Part shown: piece by piece, positions 5,870-32,739 of the stretch
Layout of the letters: every line of letters begins with the position of its first letter
How positions within the stretch are numbered: position 1 is the first letter of the stretch
Origin: Lachnospiraceae bacterium
GTDB lineage: Bacteria > Bacillota > Clostridia > Lachnospirales > Lachnospiraceae
Assembly (NCBI GenBank): GCA_030537145.1
Contig: JAUNON010000001.1
Span: forward strand, 57,577 to 121,576
DNA: 64,000 nt
Direction of reading: 5' to 3'
Made by a program: the position numbers and the translations under genes
Notes under the pieces: generated by a model
Told to the model about the DNA's origin: nothing
Database searches by the model: none
Seen by the model: only the letters and a program-made list of their open reading frames with translations

Positions 5870-7000
5870 ATGCCGAAAGTATCGATTATAGTACCGACAT
5901 ATAATGTGGAGATGTACCTGGAGGAGTGTATGGAGAGCCTGGTGCGGCAGACGCTGCGGGATATTGAGATCGTCTGTGTCAATGACGGCTCGAAGGACAG
6001 CTCACTGGATATTCTGAAAAGATATGCTGCCGATGATGAGCGGGTAGTGATCATAGATAAGGAAAACGGCGGTTACGGGAAGGCGATGAATGTGGGCCTG
6101 GACCGGGCCACGGGAGAATATATCGGCATCGTGGAGCCGGATGATTACGTTCCTCTGAATATGTATGAGGATCTGTATCAGGCGGCAGTAAAGGAGGATC
6201 TGGACTTTGTAAAGGCAGATTTTTACCGTTTTACCACGGAAAAACGGACCGGAAATATGGAGCTGGTATATAACCGCCTGGATCGTTCGAAGGAGTGGTA
6301 CGGCAAGGTGGTGACACCCACAGAGGTTCCTGTTGTGACCACCTTTGTCATGAATACCTGGAGCGGGATTTATAAAAGAAGCTTTCTGGAGAAGTATCAT
6401 ATCCGTCATCACGAGACGCCGGGCGCTTCCTTCCAGGACAATGGATTTTTCTGGCAGACCTTTATGTATGCCGAGCGGGCCATGTTTGTGGGGAAGCCCT
6501 ACTATATGAACCGCAGGGATAACCCGAATTCTTCCGTAAAAAGCCGGGAAAAGGTCTATTGCATGAATGAGGAATACAAGTATATCCGGGAGATTTTCCT
6601 GCGGGAGGAAAATAAGGAGCGCTGGGAAAAGCTGAAAACCTACTATAATCTGAAGCGCTACCGCAACTATATCTTTACCCTGAAAAGAATTGGAGCGGAA
6701 TTCAAACAGGAATATATCCGGCGTATTGCGGAAGAATTTCAGGAAAGTATGGCGGCGGGAGAGGTGGATCCCTCCCTGCTGAACGAGAAGGAGCAGGCAG
6801 AGTTTGCATTGCTGATAAAGAGCCCGGATGAATTTTATGAAAAGATCGGCAAATATACGAAGCAGGAGGATATCTCCGATGTGACAAAGGCTACATTGAG
6901 CAAGCGGCTGCGGGACATCGAGACCTCTACCACCTATAAGGTGGGTAAAGCGGTGATGTACTGGCCGATTAAGATTAAGAAAGCAATCAAAGGCAAATAG
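5870..7000 (+). CDS. GT2 family glycosyltransferase
   Basis: 376 residues. The N-terminal GT-A domain has 'VSIIVPTYNVEMYLEECMES', 'VNDGSKDSS' and the metal-binding acidic motif 'EPDDY' near residue 100. The C-terminal half has no recognisable catalytic domain and ends in a basic tail 'ETSTTYKVGK...KKAIKGK' that recurs at the end of the large glycosyltransferase at 19007-21457. It probably adds a sugar to a lipid-linked envelope polymer on the cytoplasmic face; donor and acceptor cannot be told. ATG at 5870 has GGGGAGGAAGAG upstream. It is the first gene after the cluster promoter. Confidence 0.85.
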   Translation: MPKVSIIVPTYNVEMYLEECMESLVRQTLRDIEIVCVNDGSKDSSLDILKRYAADDERVVIIDKENGGYGKAMNVGLDRATGEYIGIVEPDDYVPLNMYEDLYQAAVKEDLDFVKADFYRFTTEKRTGNMELVYNRLDRSKEWYGKVVTPTEVPVVTTFVMNTWSGIYKRSFLEKYHIRHHETPGASFQDNGFFWQTFMYAERAMFVGKPYYMNRRDNPNSSVKSREKVYCMNEEYKYIREIFLREENKERWEKLKTYYNLKRYRNYIFTLKRIGAEFKQEYIRRIAEEFQESMAAGEVDPSLLNEKEQAEFALLIKSPDEFYEKIGKYTKQEDISDVTKATLSKRLRDIETSTTYKVGKAVMYWPIKIKKAIKGK

Positions 7001-7093
7001 ATTTGGCTCAGACAGCGGGAGCGGGCGGCCAGGGGGCAGCCCGTGAAAAAGGGGGGCGGAAACGGACTTCCCCGGAGCTGAGGAGGAACAGAG

Positions 7094-25064: not shown

Positions 25065-25073
25065 TGCTATAAT
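25065..25073 (+). promoter_or_regulatory. extended -10 promoter for the c-di-GMP gene
   Basis: TGCTATAAT at 25065-25073, with no good -35 at the expected place (TAGTAT). It lies about 100 bases before the start at 25174. Confidence 0.55.
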
Positions 25074-25173
25074 GTATTTGATTCATAAAGAAAGTGTCCG
25101 GAGGCGGAACGGGCTCGCCGGGCGCCCGCAGCAGCGCCCCGGTTTTCAACGTATCAGAGAGAAGGAAAATGCG

Positions 25174-27930
25174 ATGAATATAGAAGAAAAGCTTCGCAGA
25201 TATGCACTTATTTTAAAAAAAGGCGGAATAGCCGCTTTTGAATACCGGATTTCGGAGGATCGTCTGCTGGTTTATAATGAGAATCTGGAATTGACAGAGG
25301 ATGTGGAGCATTGCCTGTCTTTTTTGGAAACTGACCCAGAGCTTTATCCGGAGGATCGGAGAAAAGCAGCGGATTTTTTTCAGAGAAGATGTAAGGGCCC
25401 GGTGGAGATCCGCAGGCTGGCGATGGGCAGGAAAGTGATTTGGCAGATGGAGGAATGGCTTCCGGAAGAAGGAGAAGGGGAACAGCCGGAGGTGATTTTC
25501 GGCAGCTTTCGGGATGTAACCATGGAGAAACAGCGAGAGGAGCGCCTGGAAAAGCAGGCAAAGCGGGATGCGCTTACCATGCTGTATAACCAGTATTTTG
25601 GCAAAGAGCTGATCAACGATTATCTGTTAAAGAAGGATCCCTATGCCTCCTGCGGCCTGATGGTGCTGGATATTGATTATTTTAAAAATGTAAACGATAC
25701 ATACGGACATGCGTTTGGGGATCAGGTGCTGAAGGAGCTGGCTCTGCTTTTGAATCGGCTTTTCCAGCCGGACGACATCCGTATGCGGGCCGGCGGAGAT
25801 GAGTTTGTAATATTACTGAAGGATATCAGTCATCCGGCACTGGTAAAAAGAGCGGTGCAGCTTGTAAAGGAGGTGCGCAGGCTCACCTTCCCGGAGAAAG
25901 GCTATGCCATGACCTGCAGTGTAGGGGTCTGCTATCTGTCGGAGAATGTATCCGGTTATACCTATGACCAGCTTTTTCAGGATGCGGACTGGGCATTGTA
26001 TCAGGCAAAGGAAAACGGCCGCAACCGGTATGTTTTTTGTGATGACCTGCGGCGTTTTGCGGCGGGGAGCGAAAAGCCGGTGAACATGAGCGAGGGCATT
26101 GATGCCAGATATATGCGGAATGATATTGTATCCACAGCTTTTGAGATTTTTGAGAAAATGAACAGCTTTGACGCTGCCATGGAGCTGCTGATGAAGGTGG
26201 TGGGCATCCGCCTGCAGCTCAACCGGATTACGGTGATCCGAACGGACATTAAGGGGAAGCGTGCCAGCCGTCAGTACCAGTGGACTTCGGATCACACTCC
26301 GCAAGTGCTGGATACGCCGGGCAGCTTTACGAAGGAGGATTTCCTGACTCTGTTTCACAGCTATGATGACTACGGAACCGTGGTGCTGCAGTATGACGAG
26401 ATGGGACAGTATTCGCCCCAGGCTCAGGCGCTGCTGATACAGGGGGAGGCCAGAACCGTGGTCTATGCGGCGATGTACTGCGAAGGGAAGTACACCGGGG
26501 CGATCTCTTATGTGGCATGCGGGCAGAAACGCATCTGGTCAAAAGAAAACCGCCGTCAGTTTGGAGAACTGACCAAGATCGTATCGGCCCATCTGGCAAA
26601 GAGTGAGGCGATGAATTCAGTCTCTCCGGGAACGATTGTGGCTTCGGAGTATGATCCGCTGACCGGACTTCTATCCTTTTCCAAGTTCCGGGAAGAGGTG
26701 GAGCATCTGATTGTGGGCGGTTATGCCCGGTCACATGTGCTGGTATACAGCGATTTTGAGGATTTCAAATATCTGAATCAGAAATATGGCTACCGTGTGG
26801 GAGATCAGGTCCTGAAGGAGTTTGCCGATTACATTATCGGCACCTTGAGGGATGAGACGAACGTTTATTTTACCAGGGTGGTTTCGGATCAGTTTATTCT
26901 GTTTATGCCCTATCAGCCGAAAGGAAATACGGTAGCGCAGGTGTACAAATTAAATGAAGAATTTGCGCTCCAGCAGTCCCTGCTTTATCCGGATATGCAT
27001 CTTCGTATCCGTACCGGGATTTACTTTGTGGATGCGGACTGCATGAGCGCTTCCGCCGCCATTGATGCGGCTAATTTTGCACGGAAGCAGATCAGGAGGG
27101 ATGCAGCCGTGCCCGTGAAGCTGTACGATGCGAAGCTGCAGCAGAAGCAGAAGCTGGAGAATGAACTGATTACAGGTATGGGCAGCGCCATGAAGGAGGA
27201 GCAGTTCAAGGTATTCCTGCAGCCCCGTTTTTCGCTGGAGAATCATACGGTGGTGGGAGCGGAGGCCCTGGTGCGCCTGCAGCGGCCGGACGGTACGCTG
27301 GTGCCGCCGGATGTCTTTATTCCGCTTTATGAAGAGAACGGGAAGATCGTAGATCTGGATTTCTATGTATTTGAGAAGGTGGCTCAATTTCTGGCGAAAA
27401 ATAACAGGCTGGGAAGGAAGCAGGTGCCCATTTCGGTGAACGCCTCCATCTGTCATGCCGCTGACGAGCGTACGGTGCGGCAGTATCTGGATATTCTGGA
27501 AAAATATGATGTGGATCCGTCACTGACCGAGATCGAATTAACCGAGACGGCCACTGTTTCGGATTATGACAATGTACGGCAGTTGTTCGGCAGCTTCCAG
27601 CGTGTACATATGATGACTGCCATGGATGACTTCGGGGCCGGCTATTCCGTACTGAACACGGTAATAGACATTCCGGTGAATACGGTAAAGATTGACCGGG
27701 GATTTGTAAAGAACTGCGAAAAAAGTGAAAAGGGGATCTATCTTTTGCAGCAGATGGTATCTTTGGTCAAGGGATTGGGATACCATGTGGTCTGCGAGGG
27801 GCTGGAAACAGACAGCCAGGTAGAGCTTCTAAAGCAGGCGGGCTGCGAGGAGGGGCAGGGCTTCTGGTTTGCCCGCCCCATGCCGATGGAAGAATACGAA
27901 AAAATGATGTACCCGGAGGAGAACGCATAA
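25174..27930 (+). CDS. c-di-GMP turnover protein: PAS-like, GGDEF, degenerate GGDEF, EAL
   Basis: 918 residues from the ATG at 25174 (AGAAGGAAAA upstream). Residues 1-~120 are PAS-like. A first GGDEF domain (~125-290) has intact 'DIDYFKNVNDTYGH' and 'AGGDEF' (207-211); the usual RxxD inhibitory site is replaced by QPDD. A GAF-like stretch follows. A second GGDEF-like domain (~495-640) has 'SDQF' where GGDEF should be, so it is probably inactive. The EAL domain (~665-918) keeps 'EALVRL', 'SVNAS', 'EIELTET', 'DDFGAGYS', 'VKIDRGFV' and 'CEGLETDSQ', so phosphodiesterase activity is plausible. No membrane segment is visible, so it is cytosolic. It would make and/or break c-di-GMP. Confidence 0.88.
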   Translation: MNIEEKLRRYALILKKGGIAAFEYRISEDRLLVYNENLELTEDVEHCLSFLETDPELYPEDRRKAADFFQRRCKGPVEIRRLAMGRKVIWQMEEWLPEEGEGEQPEVIFGSFRDVTMEKQREERLEKQAKRDALTMLYNQYFGKELINDYLLKKDPYASCGLMVLDIDYFKNVNDTYGHAFGDQVLKELALLLNRLFQPDDIRMRAGGDEFVILLKDISHPALVKRAVQLVKEVRRLTFPEKGYAMTCSVGVCYLSENVSGYTYDQLFQDADWALYQAKENGRNRYVFCDDLRRFAAGSEKPVNMSEGIDARYMRNDIVSTAFEIFEKMNSFDAAMELLMKVVGIRLQLNRITVIRTDIKGKRASRQYQWTSDHTPQVLDTPGSFTKEDFLTLFHSYDDYGTVVLQYDEMGQYSPQAQALLIQGEARTVVYAAMYCEGKYTGAISYVACGQKRIWSKENRRQFGELTKIVSAHLAKSEAMNSVSPGTIVASEYDPLTGLLSFSKFREEVEHLIVGGYARSHVLVYSDFEDFKYLNQKYGYRVGDQVLKEFADYIIGTLRDETNVYFTRVVSDQFILFMPYQPKGNTVAQVYKLNEEFALQQSLLYPDMHLRIRTGIYFVDADCMSASAAIDAANFARKQIRRDAAVPVKLYDAKLQQKQKLENELITGMGSAMKEEQFKVFLQPRFSLENHTVVGAEALVRLQRPDGTLVPPDVFIPLYEENGKIVDLDFYVFEKVAQFLAKNNRLGRKQVPISVNASICHAADERTVRQYLDILEKYDVDPSLTEIELTETATVSDYDNVRQLFGSFQRVHMMTAMDDFGAGYSVLNTVIDIPVNTVKIDRGFVKNCEKSEKGIYLLQQMVSLVKGLGYHVVCEGLETDSQVELLKQAGCEEGQGFWFARPMPMEEYEKMMYPEENA

Positions 27931-28166: not shown

Positions 28167-29465
28167 ATGAATTACAAAGAAGCAAGAGTATATTTGGATC
28201 AGGTATCCAAATACGGAAGTGTACTTGGCTTGGATAATATGAGAGAACTGCTTGACCGGCTTGGCAATCCTCAGAAGGATCTGAAATTTATCCACATTTC
28301 CGGAACCAATGGAAAGGGGTCTGTGCTGGCGTATCTCTCAACGGTTTTGTCTGGTGCGGGATATCGGACCGGAAGGTATCTTTCCCCGACTCTGTTTTCC
28401 TACAGAGAAAAGATACAGGTAGATGGAGAAAAAATTAACAAAGAATCTCTGGCGGCTCATGTGACAGCCATAGCAGAGGCGTCCAGAGATATGCAGGAGA
28501 AAAATGCAGGGACACCAACGATTTTCGAGGTGGAAACAGTTCTTGCATTTTTGTATTTTAAAGAAATGAAGTGCGATATTGTGGTGCTGGAGACGGGCAT
28601 GGGCGGTGCGCTGGATGCAACCAACATCATAGACACCACCGTGCTGGCGGTGATTGCATCCATCAGTATGGATCATATGGAGTTTTTGGGAGACACGCTT
28701 GCGAAGATCGCAGAGCAGAAAGCAGGGATCATTAAGCCGGATATCAGCGTGGTATCCGCCTGCCAGGAGCCGGAGGCGGCGCAGGTGATCCGGAATACCT
28801 GCCGGAGGCAGCGCTGCAGCCTGCAGACGGTGGAGCCAGAGGCGCTTACGCAGATTTGTTACGGATATGAGAGACAGAGCTTTTCCTATAAAAGCTGGAA
28901 AAATATGGAAATCTCGCTGGCAGGAAGCTATCAGGTGATCAATGCGGCATTGGCTCTGGAGGCGGTGGAGGCGCTGCGCAGACTCGGCTATATTCTGCCG
29001 GAGGAGCAGGTGCGGGAAGGATTTGCAAGGACGGAATGGAGAGGCCGCTTTACCGTGATCGGCCGTGATCCGCTGATCGTGATGGACGGCGCTCATAATC
29101 CGGCGGCGGCCCGGACGCTGCGGGATTCGCTGCAGCTTTATTTTCCGGGAAAAACGCTGTATTATATTTTCGGAATGTTTCGGGACAAGGATTATGACGG
29201 GGTCATTGCCCTGACGGCGCCTTTGGCAAAGCATATTATTACGGTGGCAGCACCGGAAAATCCCAGAGCGCTTCCGGCAGAGGAGCTGGCGAAAGCCGTG
29301 GCAAAGGTGAATCCTTCCGTAGAAGCTGCGGACAGCATTGCCCAGGCAGTGAGAAATAGTCTGGATTATGCAGCGGACGGGGATGTAATCGTGATATTTG
29401 GTTCTCTTTCCTATCTGGGAGAGGCGGAAAAGGAAGTAAGATGCGGGGGAAGGCACAATGGATAA
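28167..29465 (+). CDS. folC: folylpolyglutamate synthase / dihydrofolate synthase
   Basis: 432 residues, the usual FolC length. '[18 protein letters not shown]' is the Mur-ligase-like ATP loop, '[18 protein letters not shown]' the conserved folate-binding segment, '[13 protein letters not shown]' and 'DHMEFLG' further blocks, and '[11 protein letters not shown]' lies in the C-terminal domain. It adds glutamate to dihydropteroate and/or folates. AGGAGAAAC precedes the ATG. First gene of the folate operon; overlaps folE by eight bases. Confidence 0.95.
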
Positions 29466-30015
29466 AGAGAAGATCAGGGAAGGCGTAAAGCTGATATTAG
29501 AAGGAATCGGAGAGGATACCGGGCGGGAGGGTCTGCTGGAGACCCCGGACCGGATCGCAAGAATGTATGAGGAGCTGGCGGCAGGCTATACGGACAGCGC
29601 TGCGGAGCATCTGAGAAAGCGGTTTCATGTGGAGAACAACGATATGGTGATGGAGAAGGATATCCATTTTTATTCCTTCTGCGAGCATCATATGCTTCCG
29701 TTTTACGGAACGGCGGCGATTGCCTATATTCCCAACGGGGAGGTGGTGGGCTTAAGTAAGATGGCCCGAACCGTGGAGGTTTTTGCAAAGCGTTTTCAGC
29801 TTCAGGAGCGTCTGACGGCGCAGATTGCCGATGTGTTTATGGAGGAGTTAAAGCCCCAGGGTGTGATGGTTCTGGTGCAGGCGGAGCATATGTGCATGAC
29901 CATGCGGGGAATAAAGAAGCCCGGGACCAAGACGGTAACGGTAGTGACCCGGGGCGTGTTTGATGAGAACGAAACGCTGCAGAATAAGTTTTTCCGGATG
30001 CTGGAGCAGAGCTGA
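29458..30015 (+). CDS. folE: GTP cyclohydrolase I
   Basis: 185 residues. '[13 protein letters not shown]' supplies zinc and catalytic ligands (Cys, His), '[20 protein letters not shown]' and '[13 protein letters not shown]' complete the FolE signature. It converts GTP to 7,8-dihydroneopterin triphosphate, the first step toward folate. The start overlaps the end of folC, and the HD gene follows 31 bases after the stop. Confidence 0.96.
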
Positions 30016-30046: not shown

Positions 30047-30553
30047 ATGAATAAGGATCAATATAAGGAAATGCCCCGGATCGATGCGATCTGCGCCCAT
30101 CCCGTCTGGCGGGAAAGCGTGAAGCGGACCGCTGCGCTGGAACGGGACCGGATTTTCTGCAGGCATGATACGGCCCATTTTCTGGATGTGGCCCGTCTGG
30201 CGTATATTGAAAACCTGGAGCGGGAGCTGGGGCTGTCCAGAGAGGCGATCTACGCAGCAGCGCTGCTGCATGATATCGGAAGGCACCTGCAGTATGAGCA
30301 GGGGCTTCCCCATGATCAGGGCAGCCGGATGCTGGCGGAGCAGATCCTGCCCGAGTGCGGGTTTTCTCCTGCAGAGCAGGAGGAGATTTTGGATGCCATC
30401 GCAGGGCACCGCGCAAAGAAAACCGGGGAGCTGGACAATCTGGCGGGAGTGATCTACCGGGCCGACAAGCTTTCCAGGATGTGCCTGTTTTGTAAGGCGG
30501 AGCCGGACTGCAACTGGGAAGAAGAGAAAAAAAACAGGAAGATTATAAAATAG
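30047..30553 (+). CDS. HD-domain phosphohydrolase within the folate operon
   Basis: 168 residues from the ATG at 30047 (GGAGAAA six bases upstream; an in-frame ATG at 30032 is possible). The metal-dependent HD superfamily motifs are present in order: 'RHDTAHFLDV' (His), 'LLHDIGRH' (HD), 'GHRAKK' and 'YRADKLSR' (Asp). It sits between folE and folP, exactly where a dihydroneopterin triphosphate phosphatase activity is needed, and no Nudix FolQ gene is visible. That role is an inference from position. Two C-terminal cysteines ('CLFCKAEPDC') may bind metal. Confidence 0.85.
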   Translation: MNKDQYKEMPRIDAICAHPVWRESVKRTAALERDRIFCRHDTAHFLDVARLAYIENLERELGLSREAIYAAALLHDIGRHLQYEQGLPHDQGSRMLAEQILPECGFSPAEQEEILDAIAGHRAKKTGELDNLAGVIYRADKLSRMCLFCKAEPDCNWEEEKKNRKIIK

Positions 30554-30583: not shown

Positions 30584-31396
30584 GTGAAAATCGGAAATCG
30601 TGAATTTGATACAAAAAATGATTGCTATATTATGGGGATCCTGAATGTGACGCCCGATTCCTTTTCCGACGGAGGACGCTGGAACGATCTGGAGCGGGCG
30701 AAGCAGCATACGGCGGATATGATTCAGGAGGGGGCCGCCATTGTGGATATCGGCGGCGAGTCTACCCGCCCGGGCCATGTACAGATCAGCGTGCAGGAGG
30801 AGATCGAACGGGTCGTTCCCATGATCGAAATGGTAAAGAAAAATTTTGACGTTCCCGTGTCCATCGACAGCTACAAAAGCCAGGTGGTGGAGGCGGCGCT
30901 GAAGGCCGGGGCCGACCTGGTGAACGATATCTGGGGACTGAAGTATGACCGTCATGTGGCTGATCTGATCGCAGAATATCAGGTGCCCTGCTGTCTGATG
31001 CACAACCGGGAGAAGGCGGAATACACCGACTTCCTGGACGAGATGTGCCGGGATATGCAGGATTCCGTTGCCATTGCACGGGCGGCGGGGGTGAAGGAGG
31101 AACAGATTATCCTGGATCCCGGCGTAGGCTTCGGAAAAAACTACGAGCATAATTTAATTGCCATACATCATCTGGAGCGCCTGGTGGAGCTGGGATATCC
31201 GGTGCTGCTGGCCACCTCCAGGAAATCGGTGATCGGGCTGACCCTGGATCTGCCTACGGATCAGCGGGTGGAAGGAACTCTGGTTACTACCGTGTTCGGC
31301 GTAGCGAAGCATGCATCCTTTATCCGGGTGCATGACGTGAAAGAAAATATGCGGGCCATCCGCATGACCCAGGCAATTTTGCGGGAGTGTAAGTGA
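30584..31396 (+). CDS. folP: dihydropteroate synthase
   Basis: 270 residues from a GTG at 30584 (AAAAGAGG ten bases upstream). 'IMGILNVTPDSFSDGG' and 'VDIGGESTRPG' bind the pterin pyrophosphate, and 'DPGVGFGK' and 'ATSRKSVIG' are later conserved loops. It joins hydroxymethyl-dihydropterin pyrophosphate to p-aminobenzoate, the sulfonamide target step. The stop nearly abuts the folB-folK gene. Confidence 0.96.
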   Translation: MKIGNREFDTKNDCYIMGILNVTPDSFSDGGRWNDLERAKQHTADMIQEGAAIVDIGGESTRPGHVQISVQEEIERVVPMIEMVKKNFDVPVSIDSYKSQVVEAALKAGADLVNDIWGLKYDRHVADLIAEYQVPCCLMHNREKAEYTDFLDEMCRDMQDSVAIARAAGVKEEQIILDPGVGFGKNYEHNLIAIHHLERLVELGYPVLLATSRKSVIGLTLDLPTDQRVEGTLVTTVFGVAKHASFIRVHDVKENMRAIRMTQAILRECK

Positions 31397-31410
31397 CAGA
31401 AAGGAAAAGG

Positions 31411-32241
31411 ATGGGACAGACGAAGTACGACGAAATTCGAATTGAGAATCTGGAATTTTTCGCCCATCACGGAGTGTTTCCGGAGGAGACACGGCTGGGG
31501 CAGAAGTTTCTGGTTTCTCTGACCATGTATACGAATACCAGAAAGGCCGGGCTTTCGGATGAGCTGGAAGGGTCTACGCATTATGGCGAGGTGAGCCATT
31601 TTATTACTTCTTATATGCAGGAGCATACCTATAAGCTGATCGAGGCTGCCGCAGAGCATCTGGCGGAAGCGATCCTCCTTCAGTATCCGCTGGTGGAGGG
31701 CGTGGAGCTGGAGCTGAAAAAGCCCTGGGCTCCGGTGGGACTGCCGCTGGAAACGGTGTCCGTAAAGATTACCCGCTTCTGGCATACGGCTTATATTGCC
31801 CTGGGCTCCAACCTGGGCGACAAGCAGGCTTATCTGGACGGGGCCCTGCAGGCGCTGAAAGCGGTGCCGGGCTGTGCCGTGGAAAAGGTATCCTCCTATC
31901 TGGTAACGGCGCCTTACGGCGGTGTGGAGCAGGATGATTTCCTGAACGGCGCATTGAAGCTGCGCACGCTTCTGCCGCCTCAGGAGCTGCTGGAGGAGAT
32001 GCATAAGATCGAGCAGGCGGCGCACCGGGAGCGGCTGGTACACTGGGGACCGCGCACGCTGGATCTGGATCTTCTGCTCTATGATGATGAGGTTTTTGAA
32101 ACAGATACCCTGATCGTTCCCCATGTGGAAATGCATCTGCGGGATTTTGTGCTGCGGCCCATGGCGGAGATCGCCCCGAATCTGCGGCATCCCATCCTGC
32201 ACAAGACTATGACCCAGCTTCTTGAGGAGCTGGAGCGTTAA
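31411..32241 (+). CDS. fused dihydroneopterin aldolase / HPPK
   Basis: 276 residues from the ATG at 31411, which has AAGGAAAAGG directly upstream (a GTG at 31393 overlapping folP is the alternative). Residues ~5-115 are FolB ('IRIENLEFFAHHGVFPEE', 'TVSVKITR'); residues ~120-276 are FolK ('YIALGSNLGDKQAYL', 'PYGGVEQDDFLN', 'GPRTLDLDLLLYDD', 'VPHVEMHLRDFVL'). The fusion carries out the aldolase and pyrophosphokinase steps that make the folP substrate. FolB-FolK fusions are known in Firmicutes. Confidence 0.94.
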   Translation: MGQTKYDEIRIENLEFFAHHGVFPEETRLGQKFLVSLTMYTNTRKAGLSDELEGSTHYGEVSHFITSYMQEHTYKLIEAAAEHLAEAILLQYPLVEGVELELKKPWAPVGLPLETVSVKITRFWHTAYIALGSNLGDKQAYLDGALQALKAVPGCAVEKVSSYLVTAPYGGVEQDDFLNGALKLRTLLPPQELLEEMHKIEQAAHRERLVHWGPRTLDLDLLLYDDEVFETDTLIVPHVEMHLRDFVLRPMAEIAPNLRHPILHKTMTQLLEELER

Positions 32242-32298: not shown

Positions 32299-32739
32299 AT
32301 GAGCATGAGGCTGGAAGCCGTCATTCAGGAATTGGAGGAAAAAGGAAGGCTGGGAAAAGAGAGGGAGCATCTGCAGCACGGGACGACTACGGTATTTGAG
32401 CACAGTGTCCATGTGGCATACGTCAGCCTTCGTTTTGCAGAGAAATTTCATATTCGGGTGGATACCCTGGCCCTGCTTCGGGGTGCGCTGCTGCATGACT
32501 ATTTCCTTTATGACTGGCACCGCCCGAATCACGGGCATGGGCTGCATGGCTTTACTCATCCAAGAACGGCGCTGGAGAATGCGTCAAAGGATTTTGTTTT
32601 GACGGAAATCGAAAAAAATATTATTGCCAGGCACATGTTCCCGTTGACATTCCTTCCTCCCACCTGCCGGGAGGCCTGGATCGTGTGCCTGGCAGACAAA
32701 TACTGCGCTTTGCAGGAAACCCTTTTTACAGCCGGATGA
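32299..32739 (+). CDS. small HD-domain hydrolase
   Basis: 146 residues. 'TTVFEHSVHVAYVS' (His), 'ALLHDYFLYDWH' (HD) and 'CLADKYCAL' (Asp) are the HD metal ligands. GAGGAGG lies seven bases before the ATG. It follows folBK by 57 bases on the same strand, so it may be co-transcribed, and it is a distinct family from the HD protein at 30047. Substrate unknown. Its last 14 bases overlap the convergent aldo-keto reductase gene. Confidence 0.78.
   Translation: MSMRLEAVIQELEEKGRLGKEREHLQHGTTTVFEHSVHVAYVSLRFAEKFHIRVDTLALLRGALLHDYFLYDWHRPNHGHGLHGFTHPRTALENASKDFVLTEIEKNIIARHMFPLTFLPPTCREAWIVCLADKYCALQETLFTAG

Follow-up and report, generated by a model that had tools for sequence, protein, structure and literature searches.

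A folate operon with an HD gene between folE and folP

Which enzyme dephosphorylates dihydroneopterin triphosphate when a folate operon has no Nudix gene? The 2007 survey of de Crecy-Lagard et al. (PMC1971073), in the passages available to us, left the dihydroneopterin triphosphate step open in most bacteria, and the window analysed here, a 64,000-nucleotide stretch from a Lachnospiraceae bacterium, raises the question again. Its fol genes lie on the + strand in the order folC-folE-HD-folP-folBK, with short gaps or overlaps between them. Four of them were assigned by TIGRFAM matches: folC (28167-29465), encoding dihydrofolate/folylpolyglutamate synthase (TIGR01499, E 5.9e-108); folE (29458-30015), encoding GTP cyclohydrolase I, which makes dihydroneopterin triphosphate (TIGR00063, E 4.9e-66); folP (30584-31396), encoding dihydropteroate synthase (TIGR01496, E 4.1e-95); and a folB-folK fusion (31393-32241), encoding dihydroneopterin aldolase and HPPK (TIGR00525, E 4.6e-34; TIGR01498, E 2.3e-42).

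The remaining ORF, on the + strand at 30047-30553 and running from ATG to TAG, encodes a 168-amino-acid HD phosphohydrolase, the candidate FolQ2. It matches Pfam HD (PF01966) with 48.8 bits against a curated cut-off of 22 (E 1e-12); this is its only Pfam match, and a Nudix domain is absent. The HDIG model TIGR00277 gave 27.7 bits with a cut-off of 27.6, for a protein encoded within a folate cluster. Among NCBIfam matches at E 1e-3 there was no separate model for YqeK, and the match to NF005519 was far below its cut-off. The ORF and the Pfam and TIGRFAM matches confirm the original prediction of a fol operon with an HD gene between folE and folP and no Nudix gene. The genome has five Nudix matches, none of them on the window's contig. 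No RNA families or repeats were found around the operon, and promoter- and terminator-like sites there were about as frequent as expected from shuffled sequence. Just upstream of folC, positions 25072-27930 encode a 952-amino-acid protein that combines two GGDEF stretches with an EAL domain.

A second HD-domain ORF (146 amino acids, Pfam HD), overlooked in the original prediction, lies just after folBK at 32299-32739. Its place beside folBK would allow this protein, and not the first, to be the folate phosphatase, but its relatives are common (33 of the 50 family genomes searched, folP-minus ones included). None of the relatives among the matches listed was near folP outside genome G000; those on the folP contig were tens of kb or more away, and the protein was not found beside the other fol operons scanned. 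As it is unlinked to fol genes elsewhere, we rejected it as a folate enzyme and regard such a role as extremely improbable.

Conserved metal ligands and a four-cysteine signature

Two alignments of the first HD protein were used. A1 has 59 rows picked from the 85 family genomes that carry the gene; A2 has 80 rows, namely the window protein (P0001) and 79 of 80 named loci, L185 being omitted for its X letters. The named loci were examined from at least 127 relatives found in a scan of genome contigs. The metal-ligand motif H..HD..H..H..D (30176-30466, + strand) is complete in the window protein, with H44, H75, D76, H89, H121 and D140, as the claim of a full HD ligand set had it. Every row of A1 and A2 has E32, R35, C38, H40, H44, H75, D76, G78, H89 (59 of 59 and 80 of 80), D140, R144, C146, C149 and C155, and H121 is kept in 58 of the 59 rows of A1 and in all 80 of A2. 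An earlier alignment of 87 rows, which took in two duplicates (L036 and L037) and two fragments, showed a few isolated exceptions at H75, D76, H89, H121, D140, R144 and the C-terminal cysteines. According to passages of the review PMC8177086, this motif marks a dinuclear site, as in the diphosphatase YqeK.

The "cysteine pair near the C-terminus" that had been singled out is real but miscounted. Three cysteines form a C-x2-C-x5-C tail (codons 146-155; C146, C149 and C155; 30482-30511, + strand), and a fourth, C38 (30158-30160, + strand), stands two residues before the conserved H40; all four are present in 59 of 59 rows of A1 and 80 of 80 of A2. The tail was absent from all 29 of the other, non-folate HD proteins of the family that were examined. 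Judged from this pattern of conservation, the four cysteines are probably a metal site (Zn or Fe-S). Unlike this four-cysteine family, the HD proteins in the text of the PMC8177086 review are presented with no mention of cysteine anywhere. Passages of the same review state that HD phosphohydrolases typically have a conserved Arg at the third position ahead of the first ligand His. This Arg is not there in A1 and A2, where residue 41 is in most rows D, G, N, T or S; the conserved Arg residues of the fol-operon family are R35, R50 and R144 instead.

The AlphaFold2 model built on A2 is helical and of high confidence (pLDDT 95.4, pTM 0.90). With Foldseek, the only match below E 1e-3 was PDB 2pq7, a predicted HD hydrolase of a Thermotogales bacterium with no known function or substrate, which is also the best sequence match of the window protein (E 1.3e-4, 24% identity). 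It was again the best of the VIA-align matches listed (Z 14.5, rmsd 3.2 over 144 residues), followed by Ppx/GppA and cyanamide hydratase (Z about 12), SAMHD1 (about 11) and YpgQ (10.8). The predicted structure is a general HD fold and says nothing on the substrate.

Co-occurrence and linkage with folate genes

We searched 200 Lachnospiraceae genomes with the window HD protein, folP (TIGR01496) and folE (PF01227). Strong HD matches (E below 1e-10) were obtained in 84 genomes, 83 of which have folP. A profile search of the 37 folP-plus genomes that gave no strong match, and of 23 others, added one ortholog (G103, 138 bits); the next best matches had at most 55 bits and no cysteine tail. An HD ortholog is therefore present in 84 of 120 folP-plus genomes (G092 is counted among the 120 on a folP fragment that scores below the cut-off) and in 1 of 80 folP-minus genomes (Fisher p 8e-26, ignoring kinship). 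In G040, the sole folP-minus carrier, the gene adjoins folC where the contig ends. In G142, of the window's genus, folP, folE and the HD gene were all absent in our searches. In 78 of the 84 strong matches the HD gene precedes folP on the same strand by less than 300 bp; folE is directly upstream of it in 53 of these 78, and the other 25 have no folE beside them.

A class sample of 291 genomes, overlapping the family sample in some genomes, was searched with the A2 profile (E up to 1e-18) and for folP (E up to 1e-30). The HD gene was found in 51 of 85 folP-plus and in none of 206 folP-minus genomes (p 2e-34, ignoring kinship). Most of the 51 genes (41) are less than 500 bp upstream of folP; eight others are within 5 kb of it, one is far away (G410) and one is on another contig (G404), with no fol gene detected beside it within the stretch examined. 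Among the named loci (80 of at least 127 relatives), 79 have at least one fol gene and 71 have folP. The exception, L183, has no fol gene in its stretch, and folP is elsewhere in the same genome. HD orthologs also stand alongside fol genes in C. ihumii (L179), C. ljungdahlii (L197) and others.

Five Collinsella loci (L180, L195, L198, L200 and L202) have the order folE-HD-folB, with folP not next door, and folE and folBK likewise flank the HD gene in G410 and G449. This placement points to a step between FolE and FolB. The HD protein is fused to folC at L109, L111 and L216, and at L168 (4353-5513) a four-cysteine HD protein is fused to a reductase-like RibD_C domain in a genome that gave no folP match. 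Taken together, gene order, co-occurrence and gene fusions strongly support a function within the pterin branch of the folate pathway.

Other unusual fol genes were seen at these loci. The folB-folK fusion is joined to prephenate dehydratase at L050 (6845-8824), L103 (1444-3132) and L117 (4836-6524), at L050 with chorismate mutase as well, which links genes of folate and phenylalanine synthesis. A long folBK ORF at L120 (1371-3059), known from the ORF only, equals that of L103 in length. At L203 (3214-5007) folC is fused to dihydrofolate reductase, and the folP proteins of L348, L368, L370, L376 and L381 (378-406 amino acids) have an N-terminal extension of about 140 amino acids with no Pfam match.

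Folate operons that lack the HD gene

The HD gene is missing from 36 of the 120 folP-plus family genomes, and in these folE, where it is near by, mostly abuts folP. In G038 the HD gene is reduced to a remnant, its C-terminal cysteine tail, which still stands between folE and folP (L044, about 6939-7019); the gene has been lost here. Genomes of this kind, then, either can manage the step by other means or do not need the gene.

If a Nudix FolQ took over, the two genes should be mutually exclusive, and we looked for such a pattern. Of 40 family stretches extracted, 37 came from genomes with no strong HD match; beside the fol genes of the 36 HD-minus ones that remain when G103 is set aside, some of which end at contig ends, we found no Nudix motif and no HD relative; this motif scan was stricter still than a looser motif that missed 7 of 30 Nudix loci. 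No Nudix protein was detected at 29 HD-minus fol loci of the class with a profile of 23 family Nudix proteins and E. coli NudB, the latter only weakly similar to the Nudix proteins compared. Nudix counts per genome were alike, with a mean of 6.5 in HD-minus genomes (33 of the 36) and 6.8 in HD-plus genomes (33 of the 84; Mann-Whitney p 0.83), and the candidate Nudix family queried from L290 turned up about equally often in the two groups (24 of 33 genomes that lack the HD gene, 22 of 33 that have it). Among the fol-plus genomes that lack the HD gene, G087 has only 2 Nudix matches. Mutual exclusion of the HD gene and a Nudix FolQ is thus not shown by the counts, the L290 family or the operons, although, with a strict motif and no L. 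lactis FolQ as reference, these results do not speak firmly against it.

Relation to FolQ2 and other enzymes

The idea that an HD protein is the dihydroneopterin triphosphate phosphatase is not new. In PMC1971073 an HDIG-superfamily protein of folate clusters, 'FolQ2' (CPE1020 of Clostridium perfringens), was proposed as an alternative to the Nudix FolQ, and its Table 2 lists FolQ2 as 'prediction not experimentally verified'. A reconstruction of gut microbiome pathways from 2019 (PMC6593275, as far as its text was available) brackets FolQ, FolQ1 and FolQ2 in the folate pathway of gut genomes. No later experimental test of FolQ2 was found in a literature search among open-licence papers. The window protein resembles FolQ2 of the CPE1020 type by description, as both are HD superfamily proteins of Clostridia folate clusters with the same predicted function. 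What is new here is the stronger genomic support, from co-occurrence and linkage, and the four-cysteine signature; this signature, the folC fusions and the wide distribution in Lachnospiraceae are not described in the passages of PMC1971073 available to us.

Two diphosphatases in the PMC8177086 passages have the HD fold but belong to families other than that of the window protein: YqeK, with the same dinuclear ligand motif, and YpgQ, which cleaves nucleoside triphosphates. The Nudix dihydroneopterin triphosphate pyrophosphatases FolQ and NudB share the predicted step and belong to an unrelated family, so that the HD protein would be a non-homologous replacement. MptB is an HD protein as well. 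This archaeal Fe2+-dependent enzyme is, in the part of PMC3087415 available, the cyclic phosphodiesterase of 7,8-dihydroneopterin 2',3'-cyclic phosphate, and so, as predicted for the window protein, hydrolyses a phosphate ester of dihydroneopterin in pterin synthesis. However, its substrate is the cyclic phosphate from MptA, whereas the FolE of the window is a GTP cyclohydrolase I, giving the triphosphate.

Probable function of the HD protein

The gene travels with folate synthesis and adjoins a step that has no enzyme. We consider it likely (a probability of about 0.7) that the window protein is a dinuclear-metal HD pyrophosphohydrolase of dihydroneopterin triphosphate, of the FolQ2 group. 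We infer its substrate, the bond cleaved and the metal as follows. The protein would take up dihydroneopterin triphosphate from FolE and, with a dinuclear site that probably holds Fe or Mn, split the triphosphate, most likely between the alpha and beta phosphates, giving the monophosphate and pyrophosphate. It may continue to dihydroneopterin, the substrate of FolB. The original prediction of a missing folate phosphatase thus holds for the role in the pterin branch, and HD chemistry fits it, while its Nudix counterpart did not show the expected pattern. Counting against our reading are the 36 folP-plus family genomes that lack the gene, the 25 family operons where it adjoins folP but has no folE at its side, the HD protein of L168 in a genome that gave no folP match, the gene of G404 with no fol gene detected beside it, the missing Arg and the lack of a complementary Nudix pattern.

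The same genomic evidence would also suit an enzyme that removes only the last phosphate, converting dihydroneopterin monophosphate to dihydroneopterin after another enzyme has removed pyrophosphate. HD monophosphatases such as YfbR and YGK1 stand beside di- and triphosphatases in the PMC8177086 passages, but those described there are mononuclear, whereas the fol-operon family keeps the dinuclear ligand motif. The fol operons scanned revealed no enzyme dedicated to the first cut, and we regard this division of labour as rather doubtful. It is slightly less probable still that the protein has a regulatory or clean-up function linked to folate, acting for instance on nucleotides or a damaged pterin, and is not an obligate step. 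The 36 folP-plus genomes that do without it, and G038, which lost it and kept folE and folP, speak for such a role, and the invariant cysteines could serve as a sensor of iron or of the redox state; its nearly absolute confinement to folP-plus genomes and its operon place between folE and folB or folP speak against it.

We give a similarly low chance to a Nudix enzyme elsewhere in the genome being the real FolQ, with the HD protein serving an unrelated role. The genome does have its five Nudix matches, and fol-plus genomes that lack the HD gene must use something else, but the Nudix counts of the two groups are equal, and none was detected in the HD-minus operons of the family (strict motif) or the class (profile). 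An HD-type diiron oxygenase was considered unlikely: the ligand motif fits, but no O2-dependent step is needed, and the hosts of the fol-operon HD gene are mostly anaerobes. The dinuclear HD-type oxygenases named in the PMC8177086 passages are MIOX, PhnZ and TmpB.

The fol-operon HD family could even be a distinct kind of HD phosphohydrolase, although we hold this only tentatively and think it improbable. Its four invariant cysteines would hold a Zn or Fe-S centre beside a dinuclear Fe site, and in anaerobes the earliest phosphate removal on the way to folate would be coupled to metal or redox state, with one enzyme clearing the whole triphosphate.

Few gene assignments in bacterial folate synthesis are as unsettled as that of the dihydroneopterin triphosphate step. 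If the activity were confirmed, the step would be settled for many Clostridia, gut folate producers included, and the four-cysteine signature would let annotators tell the fol-operon HD protein from the many other HD proteins.
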